Source of the DNA: Pseudoruegeria sp. SK021
GTDB taxonomy: Bacteria; Pseudomonadota; Alphaproteobacteria; Rhodobacterales; Rhodobacteraceae
DNA length: 58,736 bases
Assembly: GCF_002119405.1 (NCBI RefSeq)
Contig: NZ_MTBG01000022.1
Span: 1 to 58,736, forward strand
Direction: 5' to 3'
Shown: positions 12,338 to 17,011 of the stretch, piece by piece
How positions within the stretch are numbered: position 1 is the first letter of the stretch
Layout: the number at the start of each line of letters is the position of its first letter
The notes under the pieces: model-generated
Database searches by the model: none
What the model was told of the DNA's origin: nothing
The model's input: the letters and a program-made list of their open reading frames with translations, nothing else
Translations under genes and position numbers: made by a program

Positions 12338-12375
12338 AATTTAGCCCGGACGGCAACAGCCCTCCGGGCTAAATT
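12338..12375. terminator. Bidirectional terminator between ilvN and the HNOBA-GGDEF gene
   Basis: AATTTAGCCCGGA (12338-12350) is perfectly complementary to TCCGGGCTAAATT (12363-12375), with a 12-nt loop. On the minus strand the stem is followed by TTTT. The stop codon of the minus-strand cyclase gene (12369-12371) lies inside the stem. The hairpin can serve both converging operons. Confidence 0.78.
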
Positions 12376-13355
12376 GTGTCGGAAAAAACGGTCACGCGGC
12401 CGCGCCCTGTATTTTTCGACGCGTAAAGCGCTTTATCTGCTTGCCCCAAAAGATCAAAGGCGCTCACCCCGGGAACTCCCAAGGACACGGTGATTCCGGC
12501 GCTGCCCGAAATGCGGCAAATATCGTCTCCGAAGGGGATCGGCACCTCCAGCCGCTCGATCAGACGACTCCCAAGATCAACCAAATGCCCGGCTTCGACA
12601 GTTTCCGGCAGGATCAGGACGAATTCATCGCCACCAGCACGCGCAAGGGTATCTTTATCCCGCGTGCTACGCAGCATCACTTCAGCCGCTTTTTGAAGCA
12701 CCAGATCGCCGGCCGCATGCCCCAGCTTGTCGTTCACCTGTTTAAAATAATCGAGGTCAAGCTGGATCAATCCAAAAGGCACTCCGGCATCCACATAGCG
12801 CCCAAGGATGTGGTCCATCGCGCGGCGGTTTTTCAACCCCGTCAGCGTATCCGTGAAGGCTTGTTCCTCGGCAGCAATTTTGGCCGATTGCAAACGGACA
12901 TTTAACCGACGCCATTCCTCTAGGATCGCGGACTTCGCCTCTATCAGGTATAGCATTTCCACGGTCAGGTCGGTCGGCGCGAAGTCCGCGCTATGAAGAT
13001 CGTAATCGCGGATGGCATCCACAATGGAGATACCGAAGGACAGGTTCACGATCAATTCGGACGCAGATGCGTCAGCCACCAGCACCCCTTTGAACGCCGT
13101 GTCCGGCCCGTCGCGAAATTGCAGGCTTAACCGGAGCCCGCTGTGCTGCCGCAATCCGTCCATCGTGACCACTCCGCGCGGACGGCGCAGATCAAACACG
13201 TCAAAAAATTGCCGCCCGATCAACTGGCCTTCGGGACGGAGTTTTCGCAATGTCGGCCCGGCATGAAGGATTTCGCCCGTTCCTGACACCCGCAGGTGCA
13301 TGGGCAGCAGGATATCCCGTGCGTCATGCGTTAACGAGATCGACAGCGCACCCAT
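12369..13355 (-). CDS. HNOBA-GGDEF diguanylate cyclase (H-NOX partner)
   Basis: A predicted c-di-GMP synthase of 328 residues. Residues 1 to about 150 resemble the HNOBA (H-NOX-associated, PAS-like) domain, for example the stretch HLRVSGTGEILHAGPTL. A helical linker follows, then a GGDEF domain. The active site is intact (GGDEF, residues 241-245), preceded by a product-inhibition I-site RDKD five residues upstream. DxLTGLxNRR and LDLDYFKQVND are also present. The ATG at 13355 starts 2 nt after the stop of the H-NOX-like gene, indicating coupled translation. In known pairs the H-NOX protein modulates the cyclase on gas binding. The domain assignment is by eye. It ends in the bidirectional terminator. 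Confidence 0.87.
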   Translation of the reverse strand: MGALSISLTHDARDILLPMHLRVSGTGEILHAGPTLRKLRPEGQLIGRQFFDVFDLRRPRGVVTMDGLRQHSGLRLSLQFRDGPDTAFKGVLVADASASELIVNLSFGISIVDAIRDYDLHSADFAPTDLTVEMLYLIEAKSAILEEWRRLNVRLQSAKIAAEEQAFTDTLTGLKNRRAMDHILGRYVDAGVPFGLIQLDLDYFKQVNDKLGHAAGDLVLQKAAEVMLRSTRDKDTLARAGGDEFVLILPETVEAGHLVDLGSRLIERLEVPIPFGDDICRISGSAGITVSLGVPGVSAFDLLGQADKALYASKNTGRGRVTVFSDTI

Positions 13356-13357
13356 CT

Positions 13358-13948
13358 TCAACTGAATGGTCCAGTTGCCAATTCAAAGGGGCGACCTTCA
13401 GTAAATTCATTCTGCAAAATCTGGATAGAGATTGTTTCTTCCAGACCGTTACGGCCTTCATAATCCAGCACAACCAATGCGCCATAATCATCCGCCATTG
13501 TACGTAGCAAGCCGACCATGACATGCCCAAAACCGGGCCGATCACCGCGGCAGATCAATTCAAACGCCCCATAGTCGCCTTCGATAATTTCCATTGCAGG
13601 CAGGCCCAGATCGGGGACCGCCAGACGGGCACGGCGGGGTAGATCATCAACAGACAACAGGAATTCCAGAAAGGTCTCGCCACCAAACCGCAACAAGCGG
13701 CGCAACGATTCCACATTCGGATGGGAGACGATGTACGTCCCGATATCTTCGAGGATCGATTCCTGCGGGCGGTTCAACAAGCGTGTCGCGCCGTCCAGCA
13801 TCCGGTCCGTCATCGCATCATCGTAGACGAACATCGCCTCAAAGCCGGCCATCGGAACATCGGCACTATAGGCAAGCGCCTTCCACATCTCGACACCGTA
13901 GGTATCGCGAACAAAACACTGAACTGCACGATTCATTAGCCCATGCAT
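13358..13948 (-). CDS. H-NOX-like (heme NO-binding domain) sensor, heme motifs degenerate
   Basis: A soluble protein of 196 residues with the H-NOX N-terminus MHGLMNRAVQCFV and the family's overall helix-to-strand layout. Canonical H-NOX proteins bind heme through a proximal histidine and hold the propionates with YxSxR. Aligned by eye, the proximal histidine region reads SVDDLPRRARLAVPDL (about residues 99-114) with Asp in place of His. The YxSxR region reads CRGDR (133-137), keeping only Arg. H76 in VSHPNVE is the only nearby alternative and sits one helix too early. The ATG at 13948 matches the family start. The cyclase gene follows 2 nt later. The fold call is fairly secure; heme binding is uncertain. 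Confidence 0.8.
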   Translation of the reverse strand: MHGLMNRAVQCFVRDTYGVEMWKALAYSADVPMAGFEAMFVYDDAMTDRMLDGATRLLNRPQESILEDIGTYIVSHPNVESLRRLLRFGGETFLEFLLSVDDLPRRARLAVPDLGLPAMEIIEGDYGAFELICRGDRPGFGHVMVGLLRTMADDYGALVVLDYEGRNGLEETISIQILQNEFTEGRPFELATGPFS

Positions 13949-14066: not shown

Positions 14067-14783
14067 TCAGGCTGCGGATTCTGTGGCGCACACACCATCC
14101 AGCCATTGGGGCAGCGCCGCAATACTGGGCAGGACCACATCGGCCAATGGCGACAGTTGTGCGCGGCGGGCAATCCCGGTCAAAACCGCGATCGACACCA
14201 TCCCGGCATCACGCGCCGCAGACATATCGTGCCAGCTATCCCCGACCATGACCACCTCCGCCGGTTGCAGATCGGTGCGGTCGCAAAATGCCAGCAACAT
14301 CTCGGGACTGGGCTTCGGAGAATAGCCACTGTCGCACCCGAGAATGTGGTCGAACATGTCCTGAATGCCGACCGATCCCAGATGGCTTCGCGCCGGGGCT
14401 TCGCAATCATTCGTGGCAACGCCGAGTCGCAGACCACGCGAGAGCAGACCCTGCATCAGCGGCAAAAGCGGCGTCGCCTCCGCTTGCTCAAGATCAGCCG
14501 ACATCGCCGACATCCGCGTCACAATTCCGGCCATTGACGCCCCTGGCAACTGGGGCAGCAACGTCCGCGCAATGTCATGCGGGGTTGCGCTGACCAAGAT
14601 ACTGTCCGGTCGAAAAGCGAGCATTTCAATATCGAAATCAACGACATCCGCCAGGCGCTGTGTCAATGCCGGATCGTTTTCAGCCAAGGCCGCAAGAAAA
14701 TCACGCGACCATAGCGCCCAAGTCTTGTGGTAGTCAAAGAGCGTGCCGTCCTTGTCAAAAAGGATCGCTGAAATTCTGGTCAT
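14067..14783 (-). CDS. HAD-superfamily hydrolase (Gph-like phosphatase)
   Basis: A 238-residue phosphatase of the phosphoglycolate-phosphatase type. Motif I is FDKDGTLFD, with nucleophile D10 and acid/base D12. Motif II is the threonine in GVATND. A lysine lies in SPKPSPEM, and motif III is VMVGDSWHDM with two aspartates. A helical cap domain lies between motif I and motif II. The exact substrate cannot be told from sequence; phosphoglycolate and related small phosphates are typical. It is transcribed in the same direction as the H-NOX-like gene 118 bp downstream and as DUF3572 84 bp upstream. Confidence 0.88.
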   Translation of the reverse strand: MTRISAILFDKDGTLFDYHKTWALWSRDFLAALAENDPALTQRLADVVDFDIEMLAFRPDSILVSATPHDIARTLLPQLPGASMAGIVTRMSAMSADLEQAEATPLLPLMQGLLSRGLRLGVATNDCEAPARSHLGSVGIQDMFDHILGCDSGYSPKPSPEMLLAFCDRTDLQPAEVVMVGDSWHDMSAARDAGMVSIAVLTGIARRAQLSPLADVVLPSIAALPQWLDGVCATESAA

Positions 14784-15158: not shown

Positions 15159-15604
15159 TGGCCTCGCTCCAAGCGGCAAGGCGCAGCGCCCTCGGCACGA
15201 TATAGACAGGATCTCATCATCACTTCCAACCACCTTTTGCGCCGCTGACAACGCACTTCCACTTAAATCATGCCCCTCACCGACACCCGTGCATACGCTT
15301 AGCCAAACTCATGTCTGCCAGCAACAGAAGGCATAGGCTAGCGCGACCGCCGCTCACCCTACGACGTCACAGGTTTACGGTCTGTTGTAGAATTTTCCCC
15401 TGCCGTGAAATCCGTTCGGGTTATAACCAAACATCTGGAAACGGCGCCGGAACGTCGGCGATCAGCTTGGGCCTTTTAAATCCGCGAACATCCCCAACGA
15501 AGCCGGAAGCGAGACCAACGTAAAATCTTGGCTCCCGTTCGGTAATTCTTAACGCTTGGTGCCAATGATCGACCCTAACTACAATAAACTTGGGGCAGAA
15601 TGCC
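15159..15604. other. 446-bp intergenic region, DUF3572 / pleD-like gene
   Basis: No reading frame with family resemblance was found. Visible elements are the 10-bp palindrome GGTTATAACC (15419-15428) and the sequence AATTCTTAACG (near 15543), which contains a CtrA-like TTAAC half. Neither amounts to a full consensus. The ribosome site for the pleD-like gene is weak (TTGGGGCAG, near 15590). Confidence 0.4.
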
Positions 15605-17011
15605 ATGGCCGGTCGGATTCTCATCTATGACGGCATTGCCGCGAACCGGATCATCCTGCGGTGCAAGCTGTCATCGGCCTGTTACGATGTCATCCCGGCG
15701 ACGTCCCTTGCGGATATGCGCCGCCGGATTGCGCTCCAGTGTCCAGACATTGTTATTCTCGACGCGGACGAAGATTTCGCGGCCAGCCTGACCTTATGCG
15801 CGGAAATTCAGGCCGGTCGCCTGCCCGCATCGGTTCCGGTTCTGCTGATGGCCAAAGCCCCCGACGCCGCCATGCGCGTTGCGGCATTGAATGCGGGGGC
15901 CTGGGATGTTGTCGCGAAGCCCCTGCATGATGATCTATTGATGGCGACGCTGCGACGGTTTTTGCGGCAGCGCAATAGTCTGCACGACCGCCGCAGCGGT
16001 GGCGCGCGGATCGCGGAACTAGGGCTACTCGAAGACGCCGTCGCTTACAGCACGGTCGGTCGTGTCGCCCTTGTCACGCAGTCCTCTCAGGTCGGGGCGG
16101 CATGGTTATCGCCAATTTGCGCCGCAAGTCCGCACGATTTCCGTTTGATGTCGGCAGACGAGGCCTTGGCGCCGTCTGCCGAACACTCCGCTCCAGATAT
16201 TTACGTTATCAAGGCGCGCCTGAAACGCGCCCGGGAAGGGCTGCGGCTGTTATCCGAACTGCGCTGCCGCACTGATAGCAGTGGCACTCGAACCATCATC
16301 ATTCTCGACCCCGATGATGATCACACGGGTTCCCTTCAGGATGACGCCGCGATGGCCCTCGATCTGGGGGCTGATGATGTGATGATCAACGGGTTCCAGC
16401 CTCAGGAGCTCGCCTGTCGGTTGAATATTCAGATGGCACAAAAGCGCTATTCCGATCATCTTCAAAAATCGCTGAACGCCGGAATGCAACTGGCGGTGCT
16501 TGACCCTTTGACCGGGCTCTACAACCGTCGATATGCCCTGCCCCGACTGCAACGCATGCTGAGCAGTGCACAGGCCACTGGTGGCGCCCTGTCCTTGATG
16601 GTTCTGGATTTGGACCGGTTCAAGGCGGTGAACGACACCTATGGCCACGCTGCCGGCGATGCGGTGCTGGTCAATGTGGCCAGCCACCTGTCAGAAACCT
16701 TGCGGCCGCAGGATCTGGTGGCCCGGATCGGGGGTGAAGAATTCCTGATCGCACTGGCGGATTCTGATGCTGCATCCGCGCGCAGCGTGGCCCAACACTT
16801 ACGGGAACTGATCAGGTCCAGCCCGATTGCTTTATCCGAGCGCAAGACCTTGGTCCGGGTCACGTTAAGCATCGGCGTCGCACTTTTCGATGGCAAAAGC
16901 GGCATGGCACGCCCCTCGCCCGAAACATTCATGGATCAAGCGGATCGCGCGCTATTCATTGCCAAGTCAGAGGGGCGCGATCAGGTCACATTTGCCCGGC
17001 CCGCAGCCTAA
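15605..17011 (+). CDS. pleD: PleD-like response regulator with GGEEF diguanylate cyclase domain
   Basis: A 468-residue protein with the PleD layout: receiver 1 (about 1-120), a second degenerate receiver (about 150-290), then GGDEF. In receiver 1 the phosphoacceptor is D53 (VILDADED) and the conserved lysine is in AKPL, but the usual acidic pair DD reads D9-G10 and the MMPGMDG loop is lost. Phosphorylation may therefore be weak or altered. The cyclase active site is GGEEF, with an intact I-site RPQD five residues before it, and DPLTGLYNRR and LDLDRFKAVND are present. PleD controls motile-to-sessile transitions in Caulobacter. ATG 15605 is preferred over an in-frame TTG 15 bp upstream. DivK, its usual neighbour, is not adjacent. 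Confidence 0.85.
   Translation: MAGRILIYDGIAANRIILRCKLSSACYDVIPATSLADMRRRIALQCPDIVILDADEDFAASLTLCAEIQAGRLPASVPVLLMAKAPDAAMRVAALNAGAWDVVAKPLHDDLLMATLRRFLRQRNSLHDRRSGGARIAELGLLEDAVAYSTVGRVALVTQSSQVGAAWLSPICAASPHDFRLMSADEALAPSAEHSAPDIYVIKARLKRAREGLRLLSELRCRTDSSGTRTIIILDPDDDHTGSLQDDAAMALDLGADDVMINGFQPQELACRLNIQMAQKRYSDHLQKSLNAGMQLAVLDPLTGLYNRRYALPRLQRMLSSAQATGGALSLMVLDLDRFKAVNDTYGHAAGDAVLVNVASHLSETLRPQDLVARIGGEEFLIALADSDAASARSVAQHLRELIRSSPIALSERKTLVRVTLSIGVALFDGKSGMARPSPETFMDQADRALFIAKSEGRDQVTFARPAA

Follow-up and report, generated by a model that had tools for sequence, protein, structure and literature searches.

An H-NOX-like protein without the heme-ligating histidine, and its probable role as a regulator of the adjacent diguanylate cyclase in Pseudoruegeria sp. 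SK021

The window analysed here, a 58,736-nt stretch of Pseudoruegeria sp. SK021 (contig NZ_MTBG01000022.1), encodes an H-NOX-like protein that carries neither the proximal heme histidine nor the YxSxR motif, which we take to be the propionate motif of heme-binding H-NOX proteins (Table 1). We think that this H-NOX fold has probably lost the usual way of holding heme, and that it is made with, binds and restrains the cyclase encoded next to it, a protein with an HNOBA (PAS) domain, a coiled coil and a GGDEF domain. The lack of a His-ligated heme, the contact with the PAS/coiled coil and the inhibition of the cyclase are the parts of this proposal that we infer. As a large group of such proteins was described in 2022 (group 5) and the genetics of Paracoccus hnoX in 2017, the window gene joins a known, unexplained kind. 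To this kind our analysis adds the loss of YxSxR throughout a family, a proline that appears to have arisen repeatedly at the histidine site, and a tendency of those members that keep the histidine to occur with cytochrome d1 genes.

Over residues 2–156 the protein matches the Pfam HNOB profile (PF07700) with 79 bits (E 4.9e-22, cut-off 25.5), in agreement with the initial annotation, which had called it H-NOX-like; a profile search of the window's genome at E ≤ 1 returned no HNOB match besides this gene. The gene lies on the minus strand, a point on which the initial annotation was silent. Pro104 aligns with His105 of Nostoc H-NOX, and the distances from this site to Pro117 (12 residues between) and to the Tyr site (15) are identical in the two proteins. 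The initial annotation had placed an Asp at the proximal position (SVDDLP). The loss of the histidine stands, but the residue in its place does not: since Pro104 aligns to the Nostoc histidine with the same spacing, the Asp call (Asp101 or Asp102) was 2–3 residues off, and Asp can be ruled out as the proximal residue. The reading of YxSxR as CRGDR (Cys133, Gly135, Arg137) holds in both the Nostoc and the family alignments, and leaves the Arg as the only residue of the motif; the cysteines of the protein are Cys11 and Cys133. In summary, the fold, the H-x12-P spacing and Pro117 are shared with canonical H-NOX proteins (Nostoc Alr2278, Shewanella, Thermoanaerobacter), whereas the axial His and YxSxR expected of a canonical heme/NO sensor are replaced by Pro104 and CRGDR.

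Table 1 Features of the H-NOX-like gene and its surroundings in the window
Feature	Position	Strand	Details
H-NOX-like gene, without proximal His and without YxSxR	13358..13948	-	intact open frame, 196 aa, ATG at 13948, TGA stop
Pro104 codon (CCC) at the proximal heme histidine site	13637..13639	-	placed by Nostoc alignment, motif spacing and family alignment
C133-R-G-D-R137 codons at the YxSxR position	13538..13552	-	placed by sequence, Nostoc and family alignments
Partner diguanylate cyclase (HNOBA PAS-like domain, long helix, GGDEF)	12369..13361	-	330 aa from TTG
GGDEF active-site motif of the partner	12621..12635	-	residues 243-247, intact
HAD-type hydrolase gene, upstream of H-NOX	14067..14783	-	domain match
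Second diguanylate cyclase, two response-regulator receiver stretches then GGDEF	15590-17011	+	

Structure prediction, which the initial annotation had proposed as a check, gives a confident H-NOX fold (pLDDT 93, pTM 0.89) whose best PDB match in a fold search is Nostoc H-NOX 2o09 (TM 0.80/0.85, rmsd 2.4), and all 68 of the 68 aligned family members match HNOB at E ≤ 0.01. The family also has conserved residues of its own. R83, R84, R87, E67, D68, A152-D153-D154-Y155-G156, F188 and L190 are invariant or nearly so, and the canonical proteins used for comparison show no such conservation, with the qualifications that R87 occurs in two of the three closer ones and that F188 and L190 lie beyond their aligned part. 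The gene is under purifying selection. When it is compared with the five named relatives nearest to it (from Fluviibacterium, Phycocomes and Meridianimarinicoccus, and a MAG), all of which have Pro at the proximal site, Nei–Gojobori counts give a pS of 0.65–0.81 and a pN of 0.24–0.27 per site; the selection analysis covered 71 of 80 named loci (Pro 64, His 3, Glu 2, Lys 1, Thr 1).

The survey covered 394 genomes of the GTDB family Rhodobacteraceae, at roughly one genome for each genus; HNOB was found in 296 of them at 1e-3 and the window protein was matched in 287 at 1e-4. Among the latter, 244 hold the family of the window protein (family B), three hold the canonical type (G004, G294, G360), and 40, fragmentary ones included, were left unread. 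Family B was delimited independently of group 5 and comprises 245 distinct sequences from the 244 genomes; two of its genes, L104 and L211, lie in one genome (G246). At the proximal site 179 sequences have Pro and 21 have His, so that the histidine is absent from 224 of 245; the 45 others have Arg (11), Gln (8), Asn (7), Ala (6), Ser (4), Gly (3), Thr (2), or Glu, Tyr, Asp or Lys (one each). None of the 245 has the Tyr of YxSxR (Cys 139, Val 56, others 50); its Ser is kept in 51 and its Arg in 13, and Pro117 of H-x12-P is kept in every one. Column entropy ranks the Ser and Arg of YxSxR among the most variable sites of the family (87th and 96th percentiles) and puts the His site at the 51st percentile. 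A single in-frame stop interrupts otherwise alignable family genes in three genomes (L270 in G271, L284 in G176, and G273), and in G036 and G061 the family match is split into two pieces.

Canonical H-NOX proteins from the same bacterial family differ at these positions: the 20 tallied have His in 20/20, Tyr in 20/20, Ser in 20/20 and Arg in 18/20, with gaps in the remaining two. This tally was drawn from 30 loci (L002–L031), ten of which scored below the family-B profile and stand outside it; the seven of those ten that were viewed all have both His and Tyr, and L028 is without the Arg. With Pro in 179 of 245 family members and a different residue in canonical H-NOX, Pro104 is not a matter of chance, and the motif survey of homologues beside HNOBA–GGDEF genes that the initial annotation had suggested finds both losses to be family-wide. 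A set of 289 genomes drawn from the whole class gave only six matches at 1e-8, four of them in Rhodobacteraceae, and one scan of viral contigs with the window protein gave no relative.

The cyclase lies directly downstream of the H-NOX-like gene, as the initial annotation had stated, with a GGDEF domain of 128.3 bits and an HNOBA match just under threshold (22.8 against a cut-off of 23.4 bits); at E ≤ 0.01 HNOBA is found in 39 of 44 aligned cyclases, the window's included. Its TTG start overlaps the H-NOX stop by 4 nt, and an ATG two codons on would leave a 2-nt gap. The predicted structure (pLDDT 95, pTM 0.73) has PAS-like strands and helices at residues 12–121 and a helix at 132–168, followed by the GGDEF domain, just upstream of whose active-site motif an RxxD (residues 234–237) presumably marks a candidate inhibitory site. 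A profile built from 44 partners matches residues 205–383 of sGC beta1 at profile positions 8–171 (E 1.6e-9), as well as chains 2p04 and 2p08, entries labelled histidine kinase that we take to be H-NOXA domains. Judged by these profiles, the N-terminal half of the partner is homologous to the PAS and coiled coil of sGC beta1, which makes the gene pair a split sGC-like unit with GGDEF output. Both systems combine H-NOX, H-NOXA/PAS, coiled coil and cyclase, but sGC has a class III cyclase as its output, whereas the window system consists of two separate chains and ends in GGDEF. The H-NOX domain of the sGC alpha subunit is likewise without heme. It counts against this part of our proposal that the sGC link comes from sequence profiles: Foldseek with the cyclase model returned diguanylate cyclases, PAS-GGDEF proteins among them, and the best 50 matches listed include no sGC.

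The pairing of the two genes is uniform across the family. A simple rule places a cyclase downstream on the same strand at 235 loci, and in 234 of them its open frame starts at most 30 nt after the H-NOX frame ends; at nine further loci the cyclase frame starts before the H-NOX frame ends. The cyclase is thus next to H-NOX in 244 of 244 loci with room for it, the contig ending at that point in the remaining locus (L181), and was extracted from 244 of the 245 family loci. The GGDEF motif is present in 228 of 235 scored cyclases.

A family of this kind is known in the literature. In Lee-Lopez & Yukl 2022 (PMC8738867), H-NOX group 5 is "very large", has a proximal His in fewer than 10% of its members and Pro in most, and prompts the question of how such proteins sense anything. 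The frequency in our family (21/245, 8.6%) agrees with this figure, Pro is the majority residue in both, and we see no difference in kind; by homology and motif, the window protein would be a member. The rarity of His-less H-NOX proteins that the initial annotation implied is therefore not upheld, as most members of a large published group are of this kind (Pro in 179 of our 245). A figure legend in the same paper names GGDEF, HAD and MTTB as neighbours, group unspecified. In the literature searched, which was mostly open-access papers and the 2022 review apart from its figures, we came upon no mention of a family-wide loss of YxSxR, a direction for the loss of the His or a nirS tendency, although these may be known.

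A group 5 member with published genetics is HnoX of Paracoccus denitrificans (Pden_3719), whose gene overlaps its cyclase gene; the window pair is likewise GGDEF-adjacent. The window protein matches the P. denitrificans H-NOX with 36% identity over 97% of the query (tblastn, E 1e-32). In strain HAMBI_2443, whose orthologue we took to be the same gene as Pden_3719, reading by eye gives Pro at the proximal site and AESHQ in place of YxSxR, and there is a 4-nt overlap between the H-NOX stop and a TTG start of the cyclase. According to Kumar & Spiro 2017 (PMC5588039), the Paracoccus and R. sphaeroides proteins are without the axial His, an hnoX mutant of Paracoccus is biofilm-poor, is without BapA and consumes NO faster, dgcAB mutants show the opposite, and NO stimulates biofilm formation. 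The deletion phenotype was confirmed by Islam et al. 2025 (PMC12582929), where direct measurement of c-di-GMP in Paracoccus failed.

A second relative, from Dinoroseobacter shibae (identified in part by a 100% plasmid match), is 46% identical to the window protein and belongs to the same gene pair with Dgc1, which it inhibits when NO is bound according to PMC7232146 and PMC8846402 (original, Bedrunka 2018). This orthologue keeps the proximal His (GLDDLHDRAR) that the window protein lacks, and YxSxR is lost there too (CIWHR). Because of the retained histidine, it is uninformative on the Pro members.

The initial annotation had left three options unranked, namely a heme held differently, another ligand, or a heme-free regulator of c-di-GMP. 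We find the last of these to be the best supported, if partly so, because both motifs are lost family-wide, the link to the cyclase is unbroken and the published Paracoccus genetics point the same way. In such a mechanism the H-NOX-like protein would be made together with the cyclase of the next gene, would bind its HNOBA (PAS)/coiled coil and, once bound, would restrain it without a His-ligated heme. As breaking the iron–His bond is thought to activate an ordinary H-NOX, a His-less protein could rest in the activated, inhibiting shape, and our guess is that a natural His-less H-NOX may be permanently in this "released" state, with input from some ligand, a partner or gene dosage. The H103G variant of S. 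oneidensis H-NOX reportedly adopts such a partner-inhibiting shape. There too the axial His is removed, but in an engineered protein and, as known from the title of the PDB entry (2kil), in the Fe(II)CO state.

Several points weigh against the proposal of a His-less protein that restrains its cyclase. An H-NOX can in principle retain heme without an axial His, and a subunit that inhibited its co-produced target all the time would serve no purpose unless some signal released it; we found no such signal. The five-coordinate NO form of a Caulobacter H-NOX is reported to be non-inhibitory to its kinase (PMC12329717), so that a broken bond does not generally mean inhibition. The Paracoccus biofilm phenotypes may be indirect, direct measurement of c-di-GMP failed there (PMC12582929), and the models put forward by Kumar & Spiro (PMC5588039) and by Lee-Lopez & Yukl (PMC8738867) have NO acting through this H-NOX.

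That heme is still bound via another residue and NO still sensed is a reading that we regard as quite improbable. In its favor is the stimulation of Paracoccus biofilm by NO (PMC5588039). Candidate ligands were sought among the His, Cys, Tyr, Met and Lys columns present in more than 40% of Pro types. His2 occurs in 92% of Pro types and in 0/20 canonical proteins, and His76 in 73%; however, His2 is not a likely replacement because it is nearly as common (81%) in members that keep the proximal His. No column was both near-universal in Pro types and missing from the His-keepers. Cys133 (60% of Pro types against 33% of His-keepers) and Met144 (45% against 14%) lean in this direction but are far from universal, and the Tyr of YxSxR is gone in every member read. 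The Vibrio cholerae H-NOX is reported to be a cysteine redox switch without heme. A switch of this type would fit the 139 of 245 sequences that have Cys133 where the Tyr used to be, and the window protein has Cys11 besides Cys133, but there is no family-wide Cys, which Lee-Lopez & Yukl (PMC8738867) also state for group 5, and in P. denitrificans the residue in place of the Tyr is Ala (read by eye); we consider it very improbable.

Alternatively, the vacated heme pocket may bind another small molecule, so that the protein would act on the cyclase as a sensor with a new ligand specificity. In favor of this, the predicted fold is preserved, the family has specific conserved residues (R83, R84, E67, D68, ADDYG), an inhibitor made alongside its target needs an input, and the same question is raised by Lee-Lopez & Yukl (PMC8738867). 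The neighboring genes that we viewed suggest no ligand, however, and this reading strikes us as unlikely. To a relaxed or decaying gene without function we give almost no credence. The variable motif sites, the three genomes with an in-frame stop and the two with a split match speak for it, but we reject it on account of the purifying selection and of the conserved gene pair, intact at 244 of 244 loci with room, and the invariant residues and the Paracoccus deletion phenotype stand against it as well; the initial annotation, too, had argued against decay.

The history of the loss rests on one FastTree topology for H-NOX plus cyclase, in which motif columns were removed, 96 of 251 inner branches have support below 80 and the outgroup is distant and covers only a third of the columns; on it the His label changes 16 times, with at least 9 changes forced by the starred branches. 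A tree of H-NOX alone gives 18 changes, at least 3 of them forced. A simple three-state rate model on the combined tree gives root log-likelihoods of −143.37 for His, −143.42 for "other" and −147.17 for Pro, with His leaving fast (to Pro 1.04) and Pro leaving slowly; change from Pro to His is rare (0.027), but the rate from other to His is not negligible (0.30). Since the canonical outgroup has His, His is the natural ancestor. On these trees, Pro at the proximal site looks derived and repeatedly reached, and the loss of the Tyr looks as old as the family.

Members that keep the histidine more often occur with nirS-type genes, a suggestive association that is phylogenetically unsettled. Cytochrome d1 (PF02239) is found in 9/21 His genomes and 8/59 of the nearest His-less ones (Fisher p 0.011), a comparison picked after the first table was seen, and in 9/21 against 19/139 when 80 randomly drawn His-less genomes are added (p 0.003). 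As PF02239 also matches other d1-like proteins, several per genome, it marks a nirS-type cluster and not NirS strictly. NirK alone shows no tendency (3/21 against 10/59, p 1.0), and NirK or d1 gives 11/21 against 18/59 (p 0.11); denitrification was rejected as the explanation of His retention. Eight phylogenetically independent pairs, which are too few, agree in direction (d1, 3.9 against 0.1; either gene, 3.4 against 0.3). The window's genome, searched at 1e-30, has neither a NirK nor a d1 protein, and P. denitrificans, which has NirS (PMC5588039) yet Pro at the site, is a counter-example. A second HNOB gene that relieves the need for the His was also rejected (0/21 against 26/224, p 0.14). 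Trp135, which stands in for the former Ser of YxSxR, is associated with His104 (10/21, against 8/179 Pro types and 13/45 others, uncorrected for kinship) and might give the His-keepers another contact to heme; these members may still sense NO. A broader and more doubtful picture, which we offer tentatively, is that heme has been lost many times in this one bacterial family, with Pro as the recurrent end point because a His-less signalling helix bearing Pro would mimic the broken iron–His bond. The products would be cyclase inhibitors that are locked on, free of heme and supplied with a new input (the vacated pocket, a partner or dosage), while lineages that make NO with NirS would tend to keep the ancestral His sensor.

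Sites resembling TTAA-N7-TTAA, which we take to be the CtrA-like consensus, occur with at most one mismatch in the 250 bp upstream of the H-NOX start at 52 of 243 loci, compared to 2–8 in shuffles; perfect sites occur at one of 243, no more than in shuffles. The window's own upstream 250 bp has no such site with at most one mismatch. These sites agree with the reported membership of hnox in the CtrA regulon of D. shibae and P. inhibens. An HAD gene, as in the window, also lies near a Phaeobacter copy (L368; Phaeobacter sp. G2, on a 120 kb plasmid), whose neighborhood consists of HAD, trimethylamine methyltransferase, H-NOX and GGDEF genes. Some 1.6 kb separate the second cyclase of the window, on the opposite strand, from the 5′ end of the H-NOX gene; according to PMC7232146 and PMC5588039, D. 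shibae and P. denitrificans each possess a cyclase linked to H-NOX and another of the receiver type.

It has already been asked in print how c-di-GMP is controlled by a very common H-NOX group that has no heme ligand. To this question the window adds one clean member, and the survey adds a uniform gene pair together with related orthologues with and without the histidine; P. denitrificans offers a tractable laboratory relative for the family. The D. shibae member is the one for which we found a report of an NO response in vitro and, being among the minority that retain the His, is unfit as a basis for annotating the rest as NO sensors. If heme has indeed been lost repeatedly, each divergence of a His from a Pro orthologue would be a natural experiment in how a gas sensor takes on another role.
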